Shown: positions 15,965 through 54,118 of the stretch, piece by piece | How the letters are laid out: each line of letters begins with the position of its first letter | Numbering within the stretch: position 1 is the first letter of the stretch | Source of the DNA: Trichococcus shcherbakoviae | Lineage (GTDB): Bacteria; Bacillota; Bacilli; Lactobacillales; Aerococcaceae | DNA length: 64,000 nucleotides | Direction: 5' to 3' | Assembly (NCBI RefSeq): GCF_963666195.1 | Contig: NZ_OY762653.1 | Location: forward strand, 1,054,001 to 1,118,000 | Position numbers and translations under genes: made by a program | The notes under the pieces: generated by a model | The model's database searches: none | What the model was told of the DNA's origin: nothing | The model's input: only the letters and a program-made list of their open reading frames with translations

Positions 15965-16034
15965 ATCGAGTAGGAGGAGCCAAAGGCTCCGACCTCTCAC
16001 ACCACCGTGCGTACGGTTCCGTACACGGCGGTTC
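15965..16034 (-). ncRNA. Group II intron domains V and VI
   Basis: Domain V is 16034-16000 on the minus strand: GAACCGCCGTGTACG, a GAAC-type tip, then CGTACGCACGGTGGTG. Domain VI follows (TCGGAGCCTTTGGCTCC) and ends in CTACTCGAT. These are the catalytic core and branch-site region of the ribozyme. The same sequence occurs at 45321-45390. Confidence 0.85.
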
Positions 16035-16479
16035 AATAACTTAAGTATCTACGCTGGTATAGTTGATTGAGGTCTTTCAGACCCCAACTAGCCAGCCTTT
16101 TTTTGTTAATGGCCCGGTGAATGGTCTGGTTCTTAGACATTCTCCAGTAGCCTTTACGGGAATTCGCAACTTTCCAAGCTTCTTCTCTATCAATGCCATA
16201 ACGCATCAATCCGTAGAAGCGGGTAGAGACTCTTTTCCATCTCTTCCAAATTAGCTGCCTTAGTCGATGATTCAGCCATTGAGCCGTTTCCCTGATAAAG
16301 TTTTTCATATCACCAATGCCATAGTAGTTTATCCATCCTTGCGTATACTGATTGATTTCTTTTACTATGTCTTGAAAGGTTCCTGGTCGTTTCCGACTGG
16401 TTAGCTGTTTTAATCGTTTTCGGAATTTCTGTTTAGCCGTCTTATGTGGACGGCTTCTGACTTTCCCATCGTTTTCCAA
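16033..16479 (-). CDS. ltrA: Group II intron maturase (second half, -1 frame)
   Basis: This frame encodes the maturase (domain X / GIIM) half of the intron protein: KEINQYTQGWINYYG, then RLRQLIWKRWK and the C-terminal LNQLYQRRYLSY. Its first four codons (from TTG at 16479) are not family sequence; similarity begins at GKVRSRPHKTAKQ, exactly where a -1 shift from the upstream frame would enter. I therefore read it as the 3' part of a single 453-residue reverse transcriptase-maturase made by frameshifting, not as an independent gene. A fixed frameshift mutation is the alternative. Confidence 0.8.
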   Translation of the reverse strand: MENDGKVRSRPHKTAKQKFRKRLKQLTSRKRPGTFQDIVKEINQYTQGWINYYGIGDMKNFIRETAQWLNHRLRQLIWKRWKRVSTRFYGLMRYGIDREEAWKVANSRKGYWRMSKNQTIHRAINKKRLASWGLKDLNQLYQRRYLSY

Positions 16480-17393
16480 ATGGTGAACCCAAGGAATTTA
16501 GCACTACCTGGGGTAGTGACTTTACTCTTATCGGTATTCACCGTCAGTTTCAGTTTCTTCTCAAGGAAGGTAGTGACACTAGCTAGCACCCGTTCTCCCG
16601 CACGAGGAGTCTTGGTGTATATGCAGAAATCATCCGCATAACGAACGAAGCGATGGCCACGTTTTTCCAATTCCCTATCCAGCTGATTGAGATAGATATT
16701 GGCTAATAGCGGGGAAATTACCCCTCCTTGAGGGGTGCCTTTGTAGGATTGGATAAACACATCCTGTTCCATGATGCCAGAACGAAGAAAACTCCAGATT
16801 AACTTCAGTACAATCTCGTCTTGTATGAATTCCCTCAGATACACCATCAGTTTTTGATGATTGACTGTATCGAAATAATTCTTCAAGTCACAATCGACGA
16901 TTGTTTTGTATCCTTCTTCAATGTATTTCTCAGCTTGTTTAATTGCATCATGCGCGCTTCTTCCTTTTCGAAAACCGAAACTATACCTGGAAAAGTTTGG
17001 GTCAAACAGCGGTTCAATTATCTGTAAGATAGCCTGTTGAACAACTCTATCTCTCACTACAGGAATTCCCAGATTACGCATACTGCCATTTTCCTTGGGT
17101 ATGGATACCCGCTTGACCGGTTGTGGCTTGTAGGTCCCATCCAACAATTTTGCAATGATCGCCTTTTGGTACTTGCCCATATGTTCATCTATTTCCTGAA
17201 CCGTGATGCCATCAATACCTGCAGCGCCTTTGTTTTTGTAGACTTTCTCGCAGGCAATGACTAAATTCCTTGGTGTTGCGATTCTCTCGATTAACGTGAT
17301 ACCATCTTGTTTCTTCATATCCATGCTGTATCTCTCTACGCTTCTCCATATCTCTTTCGTTTCCAACTTATCCCTTCTGGAGATAGCCGCCAT
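16410..17393 (-). CDS. ltrA: Group II intron reverse transcriptase (first half, 0 frame)
   Basis: The 327-codon frame carries RT motifs RT0-RT7: AAGIDGITVQEIDEHM, RDRVVQQAILQIIEPLFDP, FGFRKGRSAHDAIKQA, the GTPQGGVISPLLANIYL motif and the catalytic YADD in VRYADDFCIYT. With its maturase half it would promote intron splicing and reverse-transcribe the intron into new terminator sites. After KFLGFTIWKTMGK the frame runs into unrelated residues and stops at 16410. The -1 frame continues the protein from GKVRSRPHK. ATG at 17393 lacks a strong ribosome site, so the exact start is uncertain. Confidence 0.85.
   Translation of the reverse strand: MAAISRRDKLETKEIWRSVERYSMDMKKQDGITLIERIATPRNLVIACEKVYKNKGAAGIDGITVQEIDEHMGKYQKAIIAKLLDGTYKPQPVKRVSIPKENGSMRNLGIPVVRDRVVQQAILQIIEPLFDPNFSRYSFGFRKGRSAHDAIKQAEKYIEEGYKTIVDCDLKNYFDTVNHQKLMVYLREFIQDEIVLKLIWSFLRSGIMEQDVFIQSYKGTPQGGVISPLLANIYLNQLDRELEKRGHRFVRYADDFCIYTKTPRAGERVLASVTTFLEKKLKLTVNTDKSKVTTPGSAKFLGFTIWKTMGKSEAVHIRRLNRNSEND
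16435..16467 (-). promoter_or_regulatory. Candidate -1 programmed frameshift signal in the intron protein gene
   Basis: On the minus strand the 0 frame reads ATG GGA AAG, so G GGA AAG (16467-16461) is a canonical X XXY YYZ slippery heptamer. A 5-nt spacer (TCAGA) leads to a perfect 7-bp hairpin, AGCCGTC / GACGGCT with a 7-nt loop (16455-16435). Slipping back one base gives GGG AAA GTC, which enters the maturase frame exactly. The same signal is present in copy 2 at 47241-47209. Confidence 0.7.
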
Positions 17394-17830
17394 TTCGGTC
17401 TATACCACGACGTTTTCTGTAGTGCCGAGATACATTCACCTCCTTGTTTCTATCAAGATTATTATTGTTCAGCCCTTCGTGACCCTATGGTCACTACTAT
17501 GGCTTCTGCTGACTTCTTATGACAAGCTTTACTCCATGATTCCTCATGTCCATAAGACCTCCCCGGGTAAGAATGATAACCTTCCACTCGTGTCACTGCC
17601 TCATTTACTGTAAGAGATTCGTGCAGTATAGGATTTTACTTTGTACAGCAAGCTCGTCCGTCTCTATCCAGCCTTATATGAGATTTCTGTTCGTCAGTGC
17701 GAGTATTTGCGTCCGACTTCCTTCAGATTCCACCTCACGGTGGACACCCTTGTCATTCGCTAACAGTTCCTACTGCAAAGCCTGTAGTGGACTTTCACCA
17801 CCAAGTTATCACCCATGCCGGGCACACTGT

Positions 17831-17866
17831 TGAAAAAACGCACAGTCGGCTGACTGTGCGTTTTTG
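17831..17866 (-). terminator. Terminator of the GTPase gene and group II intron target
   Basis: On the minus strand ACGCACAGTC and GACTGTGCGT pair around AGCC, followed by TTTTTTCAACA and then directly the intron 5' end. The stem-loop plus T-run is the insertion site of intron copy 1. Confidence 0.9.
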
Positions 17867-45320: not shown

Positions 45321-45388
45321 ATCGAGTAGGAGGAGCCAAAGGCTCCGACCTCTCACACCACCGTGCGTACGGTTCCGTACACGGCGGT

Positions 45389-45557
45389 TCAATAACTTAA
45401 GTATCTACGCTGGTATAGTTGATTGAGGTCTTTCAGACCCCAACTAGCCAGCCTTTTTTTGTTAATGGCCCGGTGAATGGTCTGGTTCTTAGACATTCTC
45501 CAGTAGCCTTTACGGGAATTCGCAACTTTCCAAGCTTCTTCTCTATCAATGCCATAA
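45389..45557 (-). pseudogene. 3' remnant of the intron maturase gene, copy 2
   Basis: This is the last part of the maturase (from DREEAWKVANSRKGYWRMSK to LYQRRYLSY), cut off from its 5' part by the IS at 45558-46972. It matches 16033-16201 of copy 1. Confidence 0.88.
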
Positions 45558-45640
45558 TGGATAGGTTACACTTAACTGGACAAATTCATTGAGGTCTATA
45601 TAATAGAACTTAATATAATCAAAAGGAGAATATAATCCCC

Positions 45641-45925
45641 ATGACACCACGTCCAAGAAGAACCTATACCGATGACTTCAAAAACCAGATGGTACTCCTC
45701 TACCAAAACGGCAAGCCGCGAAAAGACATATTGGCCGAGTATGAGTTGACCGCATCAGCTTTCGACAAATGGGTACGCCAATCCCAATCGTCGGGCTCAT
45801 TTAAGGAAAAAGACAACCGTACTCCCGAACAGGAAGAAATGATACGCCTACGTAAAGAAAATGAGCGCCTAAGGATGGAAAATGATATTTTAAAGCAAGC
45901 GGCGCTGATACTCGGACAAAAATAA
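45641..45925 (+). CDS. IS3-family transposase OrfA
   Basis: A 94-residue helix-turn-helix protein: RRTYTDDFKNQMVLLYQNGK opens the DNA-binding domain (DILAEYELTASAFDKWVRQ) and the C-terminus is a leucine-zipper helix (EEMIRLRKENERLRMENDIL). It binds the IS ends. The frame ends CAA AAA TAA; orfB lies in the -1 frame, so the run of five A may allow the OrfAB fusion by frameshifting, as in most IS3 elements. AAGGAG precedes ATG. Confidence 0.93.
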   Translation: MTPRPRRTYTDDFKNQMVLLYQNGKPRKDILAEYELTASAFDKWVRQSQSSGSFKEKDNRTPEQEEMIRLRKENERLRMENDILKQAALILGQK

Positions 45926-45966
45926 AAGTTATCCAGGCAAATGCCGGTAAATACCCAGTATCAGCG

Positions 45967-46767
45967 ATGTGCGAATGCCTAGATATCGCCAGAAGTACCT
46001 ATTACTACGAAGCCAAGAGTAGCCCATCCGATGATGAATCGCTAACAGAAGAAATCCAGGAAATCTTCCGAGCCAATCGGCGTACCTATGGCACGCGGCG
46101 GATCAAGAAAGAGCTGTCCAAAAAAGGTAAAGTCGTTTCTCGCAGGAAAATCAGCCGCATCATGAAGAAGTTGGGACTACAATCCTGTTACACGGTAGCC
46201 CACTATAGGGTCCATCAACCGAAGAGCAATGAATCGGATCTGGGGAATACGCTGAACCGTGAATTCAAAACAGCCAATCCACATGGCGCAATCGTTAGTG
46301 ACCTGACTTACGTCAGAGTTGGGAAGAAGTGGAACTACTTGTGTGTCCTGCTCGATCTGTACAACCGAGAAATCATCGGTTATTCGTGTGGTGAGTACAA
46401 AACGGCAGAGTTGGTCCTGCAAGCTTTCCATACAGTCAAGGCCCCTTTGTCGTCCATTCAGCTCTTTCATACGGACAGGGGCAGCGAGTTCGATAATCAA
46501 CTGATTTCTAAACTATTGGATACTTTCGACATCGTCCGCTCCCTCAGCGCCAAAGGTTGCCCTTACGACAACGCTGTTGCCGAAGCGACCTTCAAATCAA
46601 TCAAGACAGAATTCGTATACCAAGAAACATTCGAAACAATAGCAGAACTTCAGATTAAGTGGTTTGACTATGTGCATTGGTACAATCATATCCGTCTGCA
46701 CAGCACATTGGACTACATGGCCCCTGTGGAGTACCGCCGCCAATTGGCGGAAGCAAACTGCGAATAA
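45967..46767 (+). CDS. IS3-family transposase OrfB (DDE integrase domain)
   Basis: A 266-residue integrase-like protein. HTH_21 is at the N-terminus (RTYGTRRIKKELSKKGKVVS). The catalytic triad is in SDLTYVRVGKKWNYLCVLLD (first Asp), FHTDRGSEFDN (second Asp) and CPYDNAVAEATFKSIKTEF (Glu). The -1 frame is open upstream from the end of orfA (KVIQANAGKYPVSA), so the active form is probably the OrfAB fusion rather than this product alone. No inactivating change is visible, so the element may be active. Confidence 0.93.
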   Translation: MCECLDIARSTYYYEAKSSPSDDESLTEEIQEIFRANRRTYGTRRIKKELSKKGKVVSRRKISRIMKKLGLQSCYTVAHYRVHQPKSNESDLGNTLNREFKTANPHGAIVSDLTYVRVGKKWNYLCVLLDLYNREIIGYSCGEYKTAELVLQAFHTVKAPLSSIQLFHTDRGSEFDNQLISKLLDTFDIVRSLSAKGCPYDNAVAEATFKSIKTEFVYQETFETIAELQIKWFDYVHWYNHIRLHSTLDYMAPVEYRRQLAEANCE

Positions 46768-46783
46768 AACAAGACGAGGCTGG

Positions 46784-46912
46784 CTTGCGTACCATTGACA
46801 TGGAGGGGCGGCAGGATAGGCTTTGGGGCTGGCCCATATTTCGATTCTTGAAAATTTGGAGACAGGCCAGTTTATCCTACCGCCAGAGGCTCCGTGTCAA
46901 TGGCAGCCGTGT
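46784..46912. repeat. Large imperfect hairpin in the IS right end
   Basis: CCATTGACATGGAG...GGCGGCAGGATA pairs with TATCCTACCGCC...GGCTCCGTGTCAATGG over about 28 positions with one bulge, around a ~55-nt loop. It lies between orfB and the right terminal repeat. Confidence 0.7.
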
Positions 46913-46972
46913 ATACCCTCAAATCATTTTTGACACCTTATTATTTTTGTCCGAAAAAGTGTTGACAGTCCA

Positions 46973-47253
46973 TAACGCATCAATCCGTAGAAGCGGGTAG
47001 AGACTCTTTTCCATCTCTTCCAAATTAGCTGCCTTAGTCGATGATTCAGCCATTGAGCCGTTTCCCTGATAAAGTTTTTCATATCACCAATGCCATAGTA
47101 GTTTATCCATCCTTGCGTATACTGATTGATTTCTTTTACTATGTCTTGAAAGGTTCCTGGTCGTTTCCGACTGGTTAGCTGTTTTAATCGTTTTCGGAAT
47201 TTCTGTTTAGCCGTCTTATGTGGACGGCTTCTGACTTTCCCATCGTTTTCCAA
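46973..47253 (-). pseudogene. 5' remnant of the intron maturase frame, copy 2
   Basis: Corresponds to the first half of the -1 frame of copy 1 (from TTG at 47253 through GKVRSRPHK to FYGLMRYG). The IS interrupts it after MRYG, and the frame then reads a few IS-derived residues before stopping at 46924. The GIIM region is incomplete, so the product cannot be a full maturase. Confidence 0.88.
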
Positions 47254-48167
47254 ATGGTGAACCCAAGGAATTTAGCACTACCTGGGGTAGTGACTTTACT
47301 CTTATCGGTATTCACCGTCAGTTTCAGTTTCTTCTCAAGGAAGGTAGTGACACTAGCTAGCACCCGTTCTCCCGCACGAGGAGTCTTGGTGTATATGCAG
47401 AAATCATCCGCATAACGAACGAAGCGATGGCCACGTTTTTCCAATTCCCTATCCAGCTGATTGAGATAGATATTGGCTAATAGCGGGGAAATTACCCCTC
47501 CTTGAGGGGTGCCTTTGTAGGATTGGATAAACACATCCTGTTCCATGATGCCAGAACGAAGAAAACTCCAGATTAACTTCAGTACAATCTCGTCTTGTAT
47601 GAATTCCCTCAGATACACCATCAGTTTTTGATGATTGACTGTATCGAAATAATTCTTCAAGTCACAATCGACGATTGTTTTGTATCCTTCTTCAATGTAT
47701 TTCTCAGCTTGTTTAATTGCATCATGCGCGCTTCTTCCTTTTCGAAAACCGAAACTATACCTGGAAAAGTTTGGGTCAAACAGCGGTTCAATTATCTGTA
47801 AGATAGCCTGTTGAACAACTCTATCTCTCACTACAGGAATTCCCAGATTACGCATACTGCCATTTTCCTTGGGTATGGATACCCGCTTGACCGGTTGTGG
47901 CTTGTAGGTCCCATCCAACAATTTTGCAATGATCGCCTTTTGGTACTTGCCCATATGTTCATCTATTTCCTGAACCGTGATGCCATCAATACCTGCAGCG
48001 CCTTTGTTTTTGTAGACTTTCTCGCAGGCAATGACTAAATTCCTTGGTGTTGCGATTCTCTCGATTAACGTGATACCATCTTGTTTCTTCATATCCATGC
48101 TGTATCTCTCTACGCTTCTCCATATCTCTTTCGTTTCCAACTTATCCCTTCTGGAGATAGCCGCCAT
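47184..48167 (-). CDS. ltrA: Group II intron reverse transcriptase (first half, 0 frame), copy 2
   Basis: Identical in all 327 residues to the frame at 16410-17393, including YADD and GTPQGG motifs and the same abrupt loss of family similarity after TIWKTMGK. With frameshifting at 47241-47235 the fusion would still be cut by the IS in the maturase part. The RT half may be made but maturation would rely on copy 1. Sequence identity implies a recent duplication. Confidence 0.85.
   Translation of the reverse strand: MAAISRRDKLETKEIWRSVERYSMDMKKQDGITLIERIATPRNLVIACEKVYKNKGAAGIDGITVQEIDEHMGKYQKAIIAKLLDGTYKPQPVKRVSIPKENGSMRNLGIPVVRDRVVQQAILQIIEPLFDPNFSRYSFGFRKGRSAHDAIKQAEKYIEEGYKTIVDCDLKNYFDTVNHQKLMVYLREFIQDEIVLKLIWSFLRSGIMEQDVFIQSYKGTPQGGVISPLLANIYLNQLDRELEKRGHRFVRYADDFCIYTKTPRAGERVLASVTTFLEKKLKLTVNTDKSKVTTPGSAKFLGFTIWKTMGKSEAVHIRRLNRNSEND
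47209..47241 (-). promoter_or_regulatory. Candidate -1 frameshift signal, copy 2
   Basis: The same slippery heptamer G GGA AAG (47241-47235), 5-nt spacer and 7-bp stem-loop AGCCGTC / GACGGCT (47229-47209) as in copy 1. Confidence 0.7.
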
Positions 48168-48605
48168 TTCGGTCTATACCACGACGTTTTCTGTAGTGCC
48201 GAGATACATTCACCTCCTTGTTTCTATCAAGATTATTATTGTTCAGCCCTTCGTGACCCTATGGTCACTACTATGGCTTCTGCTGACTTCTTATGACAAG
48301 CTTTACTCCATGATTCCTCATGTCCATAAGACCTCCCCGGGTAAGAATGATAACCTTCCACTCGTGTCACTGCCTCATTTACTGTAAGAGATTCGTGCAG
48401 TATAGGATTTTACTTTGTACAGCAAGCTCGTCCGTCTCTATCCAGCCTTATATGAGATTTCTGTTCGTCAGTGCGAGTATTTGCGTCCGACTTCCTTCAG
48501 ATTCCACCTCACGGTGGACACCCTTGTCATTCGCTAACAGTTCCTACTGCAAAGCCTGTAGTGGACTTTCACCACCAAGTTATCACCCATGCCGGGCACA
48601 CTGCA

Positions 48606-53842: not shown

Positions 53843-54118
53843 TACAAAAAAAGCCCTTGTCCCCCCTTTAAAGGGACAAGAGCTTGTATTCTCCTGCGAT
53901 ACCACCCAAATTGACGATAATAATCGCCCACTCGTTCACATACCAACATATGTGCCTGTCTGTTAACGGACCAGGTTCCCCGTTTGCCCCTACTCTTTTC
54001 AAGGCAACCCTCTCAAGTCCATTCGGCATCCCCTTCGCTATCGCACTCTCACTGGCGGCGACTCTCTGGAAACAAGGTATGATGCGTACTTCTCTTGATT
54101 ATCGGTTTTATTAGATGG
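53843..54118 (-). ncRNA. Tryptophan T-box riboswitch
   Basis: On the minus strand the T-box sequence AATTTGGGTGGTATCGC (53912-53896) fits the consensus. The terminator CTCTTGTCCCTTT / AAAGGGGGGACAAGGGC plus T-run is at 53884-53846. In the 5' region GAATGGACTTGAG offers TGG at 54021-54019, the expected Trp specifier codon. Uncharged tRNA-Trp should favour the antiterminator and switch on trpDCFBA. Confidence 0.92.

Follow-up and report, generated by a model that had tools for sequence, protein, structure and literature searches.

Programmed -1 ribosomal frameshifting as the probable route to the protein of a bacterial group IIC intron

Group II introns are regarded as the ancestors of spliceosomal introns and as relatives of the non-LTR retrotransposons, and programmed frameshifting is a classic form of dosage control in IS elements and retroviruses. 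The window analysed here (the whole stretch of 64,000 nt of Trichococcus shcherbakoviae DNA, contig NZ_OY762653.1) holds on its minus strand a group II intron whose reverse transcriptase (RT)-maturase is divided between two overlapping reading frames. This raises the question of whether the protein is the remnant of a broken gene or the product of a programmed change of frame, as a preliminary description of the locus had proposed. We consider that the intron-encoded protein is made by programmed -1 ribosomal frameshifting with a probability of about 0.92, judged from comparative sequence data.

The intron (copy A) lies at 15965..17827 (minus strand) and was recognized by Rfam matches; its 5' end (GTGTGCCCGGC) at 17827 and its 3' end (...CTACTCGAT) at ~15965 were set by eye from copies with different flanks. 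The Rfam matches above the gathering score are group-II-D1D4-3, D1D4-1 and the catalytic Intron_gpII (RF02001, RF01998 and RF00029). A terminator-like hairpin followed by T's (17834..17865, minus strand), located by eye from a self-complementary match and the sequence, adjoins the intron upstream of its 5' end. Insertion behind intrinsic terminators is described as a group IIC hallmark in PMC4424553. By its group II catalytic RNA domains and its insertion just downstream of intrinsic terminators, the element is classed as a group IIC intron. Elsewhere in the window a T-box leader is found at 53869-54111 (minus strand, Rfam RF00230).

The RT part of the protein (RVT_1) is encoded in the 0 frame by ORF1 (17393..16410, minus strand, 327 aa), which ends with a TAA at 16412..16410. 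The maturase (thumb/X) part with the GIIM domain is encoded by ORF2 (16033..16479, minus strand), which overlaps ORF1 in the -1 phase, comes to 148 aa from a TTG at 16479 and is joined to ORF1 from the GTC at 16461. RVT_1 and GIIM are the only Pfam domains of the split protein. At the junction the 0 frame reads ...ACG ATG GGA AAG TCA and contains the slippery heptamer G_GGA_AAG (16461..16467), followed by the spacer TCAGA (5 nt, 16460..16456) and by a hairpin, the presumed stimulator, AGCCGTC-CACATAA-GACGGCT (16435..16455; all on the minus strand), that starts 5 nt 3' of the heptamer. The hairpin consists of a perfect 7-bp stem (AGCCGTC 16455..16449 and GACGGCT 16441..16435) and a 7-nt loop (CACATAA 16448..16442) and is the sole structure in a fold of the 53 nt past the heptamer (-11.3 kcal/mol). 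These domains, coordinates and fold agree with the preliminary description, which had claimed that the RT-maturase passes into the -1 frame at G_GGA_AAG and that the heptamer is properly phased, with a 5-nt spacer and a perfect 7-bp stem-loop.

A tandem slip would give the fusion of 453 aa that had been proposed, if counted from 17393. The fusion aligns with the best solved relative, GsI-IIC RT (6ar1), over query residues 33-446 and chain residues 2-414 of 428 (E 7e-119), so that nearly the whole of GsI-IIC RT is covered with a single gap near the junction. The alignment of the fusion stands, but its length is probably overstated: because stops break the stretch 5' of MDMKKQDG in several relatives, translation probably begins at the ATG at 17324 or 17318, and the fusion would therefore be 430 or 428 aa long. 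Between 17393 and 17450 (minus strand) there is also a strong AAGGAGGTG Shine-Dalgarno sequence ~120 nt 5' of the probable start. It lies within a stretch that is conserved among relatives. A short ORF (MYLGTTENVVV) comes after it; this short ORF shares the frame of ORF1 and is closed by TAG in copies A and C.

Three copies of the intron are present in this genome, all with the same split; two (A and B) are identical and the third (copy C, L003) is 92% identical with both ORFs open. A 51-bp intron remnant was also found. Copy B (45321..48601, minus strand) is identical to copy A over 1634 + 238 bp, and its heptamer (47235..47241, minus strand, offset 30774) and hairpin (47209..47229, minus strand) show 100% identity to those of copy A. 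The ORF2 of copy B is interrupted by an IS3-family element (45558..46969, plus strand) with the repeat CCATAA, up to 6 bp, at its joints; its OrfA (45641-45925) and OrfB (45967-46767) occupy separate ORFs, an arrangement shared with elements that rely on frameshifting. Copies A, B and C each lie behind a terminator-like hairpin (assigned by eye) at different places, and the split form has therefore moved; the identity of copies at different sites implies that this mobility was recent.

Introns whose cores exactly match those of T. flocculiformis DSM 2094 and T. pasteurii DSM 2381 occur in genomes of the same genus. The loci L003 (from ~3330) and L006 (G000:C1:1881026-1882872) were noted in connection with a flocculiformis-type copy. 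The T. pasteurii copy (L007/L035) retains an intact frameshift signal and is probably dead because of an in-frame stop in the RT, at ORF1 codon ~127. One further genome of the genus (G004) gave 27 DNA matches and 12 ORF2 matches, with many intron pieces, several of them at contig ends, which suggests that many intron copies were collapsed in the assembly. Decayed copies of the split type include L007 (internal stop), L010 and copy B.

Protein searches with ORF2, in which the signal was not demanded, were run on 13 genomes from the genus, 395 from the order and 398 from the class. Among the matches listed, ORF2 relatives were found in 6 of 13, at least 76 of 395 and at least 76 of 398 genomes, respectively (E up to 1e-20 for the class), and the junctions were read at up to 30 loci per search. 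A split at the same point was found in G000, G003, G007, G004, G155, G037, G321, G337, G053, G212, G389 and G633, with identities from 95% to ~50% and with 3-7 same-scoring copies in several genomes. All 13 distinct split junctions from the protein searches (12 + 1 from two sets) contain GGGAAAG and 12 of them contain a six-pair stem, the exception being G337; once the pattern-found contexts are added, the stem is present in 23 of 25, and the two broken ones are the G337 rows. The two G337 copies (L067, L165) keep GGGAAAG, but their stems are broken and the open RT frame that leads up to the site is just 109 codons long; they apparently represent a decaying branch. Comparison thus places the split at one site, shared with heptamer (13/13) and hairpin (12/13) by close and moderately distant homologues, and the earlier claim that a random indel is unlikely is supported by these signal-blind searches. 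Three more distant loci (L091, L110 and L113, with ORF2 identities of 50, 36 and 36%) have a net -1 phase without the heptamer; here the net phase alone was read.

A search pattern that demands the signal was drawn from the first ten sites and gave 52 sites in 20 of 460 genomes from four families (3/18, 9/261, 2/105 and 6/76). The reversed pattern gave no match over the same 460 genomes, and a second order-level pattern search over the same 261 genomes gave nothing further. In the phylum sample the only match was in the window's own genome (1/398), with one chance match for the reversed control. Such a search is blind to loss of the signal, and the frequency of loss is not readable from pattern-found sites. 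The exact pattern had no match in viral_contigs, and the 119 phage records with ORF1 relatives are all below 60% identity. At least 5000 plasmid records match; among the 60 matches listed, 10 have no annotated feature under the match, and the heptamer was found in none of the four of these loci that were read (L170-L173). Three of the four are in a single phase across the junction though broken elsewhere, and one (L173) has a +1 break.

Among single-frame relatives, GGGAAAG is present in 0 of 45 distinct sequences and the six-pair stem in 0 of 45 rows, with one row having 5 pairs and one having 4. The closest of these relatives, among the loci read, reach 66% identity over ORF2 (L089, L036-L038), and the residues at the place of the heptamer are varied (48 distinct rows). 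A tree was built from 57 rows (26 split and 31 single-frame) after too-short rows were dropped, including 10 of the 36 split contexts. A single branch (87/56; 85% of bootstrap trees) sets the split rows apart, and the single-frame relatives fall outside the split group. The tree is consistent with one origin of the split and also allows two. The split rows were partly gathered by pattern, so revertants may be missing from the tree.

Several observations suggest that the heptamer and hairpin are a selected nucleic acid signal. The heptamer reads GGG AAA G at 23 of 23 aligned sites, of which 10 were pattern-found, so that the unbiased figure is 13 of 13; it is unchanged, while 5 of the 14 pairs compared have saturated synonymous sites in the RT. 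Over the 23 distinct sites, 93.2% of the stem cells are paired, compared to 84.8% in shuffles (0/500 as high) and 15-43% in slid versions. The covariation score of the stem is 0.167 compared to 0.043 in shuffles (0/500 as high); two other covariation measures, both-sides-changed pairs and further pair types, did not exceed shuffles (362/500 and 64/500, respectively). Compensatory changes (U-A, C-G, A-U) occur at one inner stem pair, the column pair 30-40, which is AU in 16 sites, UA in 3, CG in 2, GU in 1 and broken in 1. Since most letters of the stem are fixed by the pattern, independent evidence from pattern-found sites is limited to the free pairs; the protein-found sites by themselves already show UA, CG, AU and GU at this pair. 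With 6-7 bp the stem is short, and 9 of the 23 sites leave its outermost pair open. Taken together, the comparison indicates that the downstream hairpin is conserved beyond coding need. A Shine-Dalgarno-like upstream stimulator occurs in 2 of 17 sequences and is not conserved. RNAalifold, applied to 17 sequences over 150 nt starting with the heptamer, found no larger downstream structure; it gave the one downstream hairpin and a weak 5-bp pairing in which the heptamer itself would take part.

Coding selection was estimated from dN/dS in 14 hand-picked, partly overlapping pairs. In the RT (frame 0) dN/dS is 0.034-0.067 in 8 usable pairs; 5 pairs are saturated and a near-identical pair gives 0.261, which rests on four changes. 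In the maturase (frame -1) dN/dS is 0.042-0.143 in 10 usable pairs, 3 being saturated and one having a single change. Both the RT and the maturase are thus under strong purifying selection. Within the 20-codon overlap, frame -1 gives 0-0.29 in 13 pairs and 0.62 in one, and frame 0 gives 0.45-7.5 in seven pairs and is undefined in the other seven (no synonymous change), so that frame -1 is the more constrained there. The 0-frame stop falls right after AAG in 7 of 17 sequences, 16 codons on in 8 (the distance found in the window copy) and 19 codons on in 2. In G212 (7 copies) and G389 (5 copies) a -1 stop abuts GGG and the 0 stop comes directly after AAG, and the frame switch must therefore fall inside the heptamer.

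The distribution of copies bears on whether the split protein is functional. All GIIM domains detected are of the split type in G037 (7/7), G321 (4/4), G155 (3/3), G053 (3/3) and G633 (2/2), and no single-frame maturase was detected in these five genomes. Where single-frame introns of other kinds coexist, the split-type share is 7/9 in G212, 5/20 in G389, 5/8 in G967, 1/10 in G969 and 3/4 in G000. The G037 copies have a common 3' end and different flanks; the G967 and G321 copies have both ends in common and are placed, as judged by eye, behind terminator-like sequences, although the upstream flank is identical in two of the five G967 copies. Because split copies have spread without a detected single-frame maturase, it seems that mobility is supported by the split protein itself, unless every lineage has lost single-frame helpers.

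In the mechanism that we propose, the majority of ribosomes would stay in frame 0 through the RT part and terminate 0, 16 or 19 codons past AAG depending on the lineage. The product would be an RT fragment that lacks the thumb/maturase part. A fraction of ribosomes would pause at the hairpin, where the two tRNAs on GGA-AAG could re-pair with GGG-AAA, and translation in frame -1 would then yield the complete RT-maturase needed for splicing and retromobility. The likely effect would be a low, fixed dose of active protein; by analogy with IS3-type elements, the shift would hold this protein at a low level and thereby restrict mobility. The sequence comparison shows the split, its site and coding selection in both frames and points to a selected signal; the ribosomal nature of the shift, its efficiency, its purpose and which product would be the commoner are points that we infer. 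We regard as possible but rather unlikely a more elaborate lineage-wide switch between two products, in which the 0-frame RT-only protein would have its own job (assisting the RT-maturase, competing with it or repressing it) and pausing at the hairpin would time ribosome clearance so that the intron RNA could fold, associate in cis with the nascent maturase and undergo splicing.

If RT and maturase were instead two proteins acting together, with the second made by its own or coupled initiation, both frames would be open and selected, as they are. A possible start near the junction is present in 8 of 36 contexts, including the window copies (a TTG four codons before GGG) and L090, L135 and L136 (an ATG 17 codons before GGG). 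However, ATG, GTG and TTG, the start codons counted (rarer ones are outside the count), are absent from frame -1 before codon +21 in 28 of the 36 contexts, not all of which are independent, and the G212 lineage has none in the first 60 codons. Separate initiation of ORF2 was rejected for most lineages on this absence, and the phased heptamer and hairpin would be left unexplained; we therefore consider a split enzyme very unlikely.

Transcriptional slippage, in which RNA polymerase would add a base at GGGAAAG and part of the mRNA would be in a single frame, would likewise yield the fusion, and PMC3711429 argues for it in several transposase families. The runs here are just 3 G + 3 A, compared to the A-rich transposase sites in the same source (PMC3711429); the direction and codon phase are fixed and the hairpin stands at ribosomal spacing, and slippage of this kind seems just as improbable as a split enzyme. 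The least probable explanation is that a dying or dead copy gained or lost one base, or that the sequence contains an error, with the heptamer and hairpin present by chance. Group II intron proteins are often interrupted or incomplete (~30% of 1,949 representative proteins in PMC8919778), real decay is present (the IS in copy B, and L091, L110 and L113 (net -1) and L173 (+1), broken without GGGAAAG there) and a one-base loss in a G/A run would leave a run anyway, but this explanation was rejected, since homologues from independent genomes are split at this site (26 full-length rows, down to ~50% identity), selection is not relaxed (dN/dS ~0.03-0.14 on either side in usable pairs), multicopy families are without a detected single-frame maturase and the hairpin has compensating changes.

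Programmed -1 frameshifting here would be a known form of recoding in a known class of element, conserved over a lineage, a combination for which we found no report among the open-access papers listed. The statement of the preliminary description that no described case was known for a group II intron protein agrees with this search of open-access full text; subscription journals were largely outside it, and an unseen report is possible. PMC8919778 mentions 'read-through or frameshift mechanisms' in general terms as something that might apply to broken intron proteins. If our reading is true, programmed frameshifting is extended to a mobile ribozyme, which bears on how group II introns limit their own spread, and it suggests that automatic annotation may label functional elements as frameshifted pseudogenes. 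A natural series (identical copies, close and distant relatives and single-frame outgroups) is at hand for the effect of recoding on retromobility.

The single-frame group IIC introns, such as those encoding GsI-IIC RT (PDB 6ar1) and the Oceanobacillus proteins L036-L038, have the same group II RNA domains and the same RT and maturase build, and they also insert just behind terminator-like hairpins. The split introns differ from them in that the frame is divided by a -1 site, the heptamer and full stem of which are found in none of the 45. The GGGAAAG sequence is also the frameshift site of the phage lambda G/GT genes. As described in PMC5009743, G_GGA_AAG is highly shift-prone in E. coli, and lambda G/GT has a low-level -1 shift that gives two products with a common N-terminus in a ratio of 30:1; unlike the intron, G/GT is no mobile retroelement and the ratio serves tail assembly. 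Frame changes are presented as typical of IS elements in PMC5009743 and PMC3711429. The IS3/IS911 elements, with their frameshifted OrfAB transposase, are likewise mobile and have overlapping ORFs, a slippery motif with a downstream structure and a full enzyme made only by a change of frame (PMC4066793 and PMC3711429), but they encode a DNA transposase with A-rich slippery runs, whereas here a retroelement with a ribozyme uses G_GGA_AAG. In retroviral gag-pol, the RT product of the element is also limited by a -1 shift (PMC5009743), whereas in the intron the shift would fall inside the enzyme, between its RT and maturase parts, and in a bacterial host.
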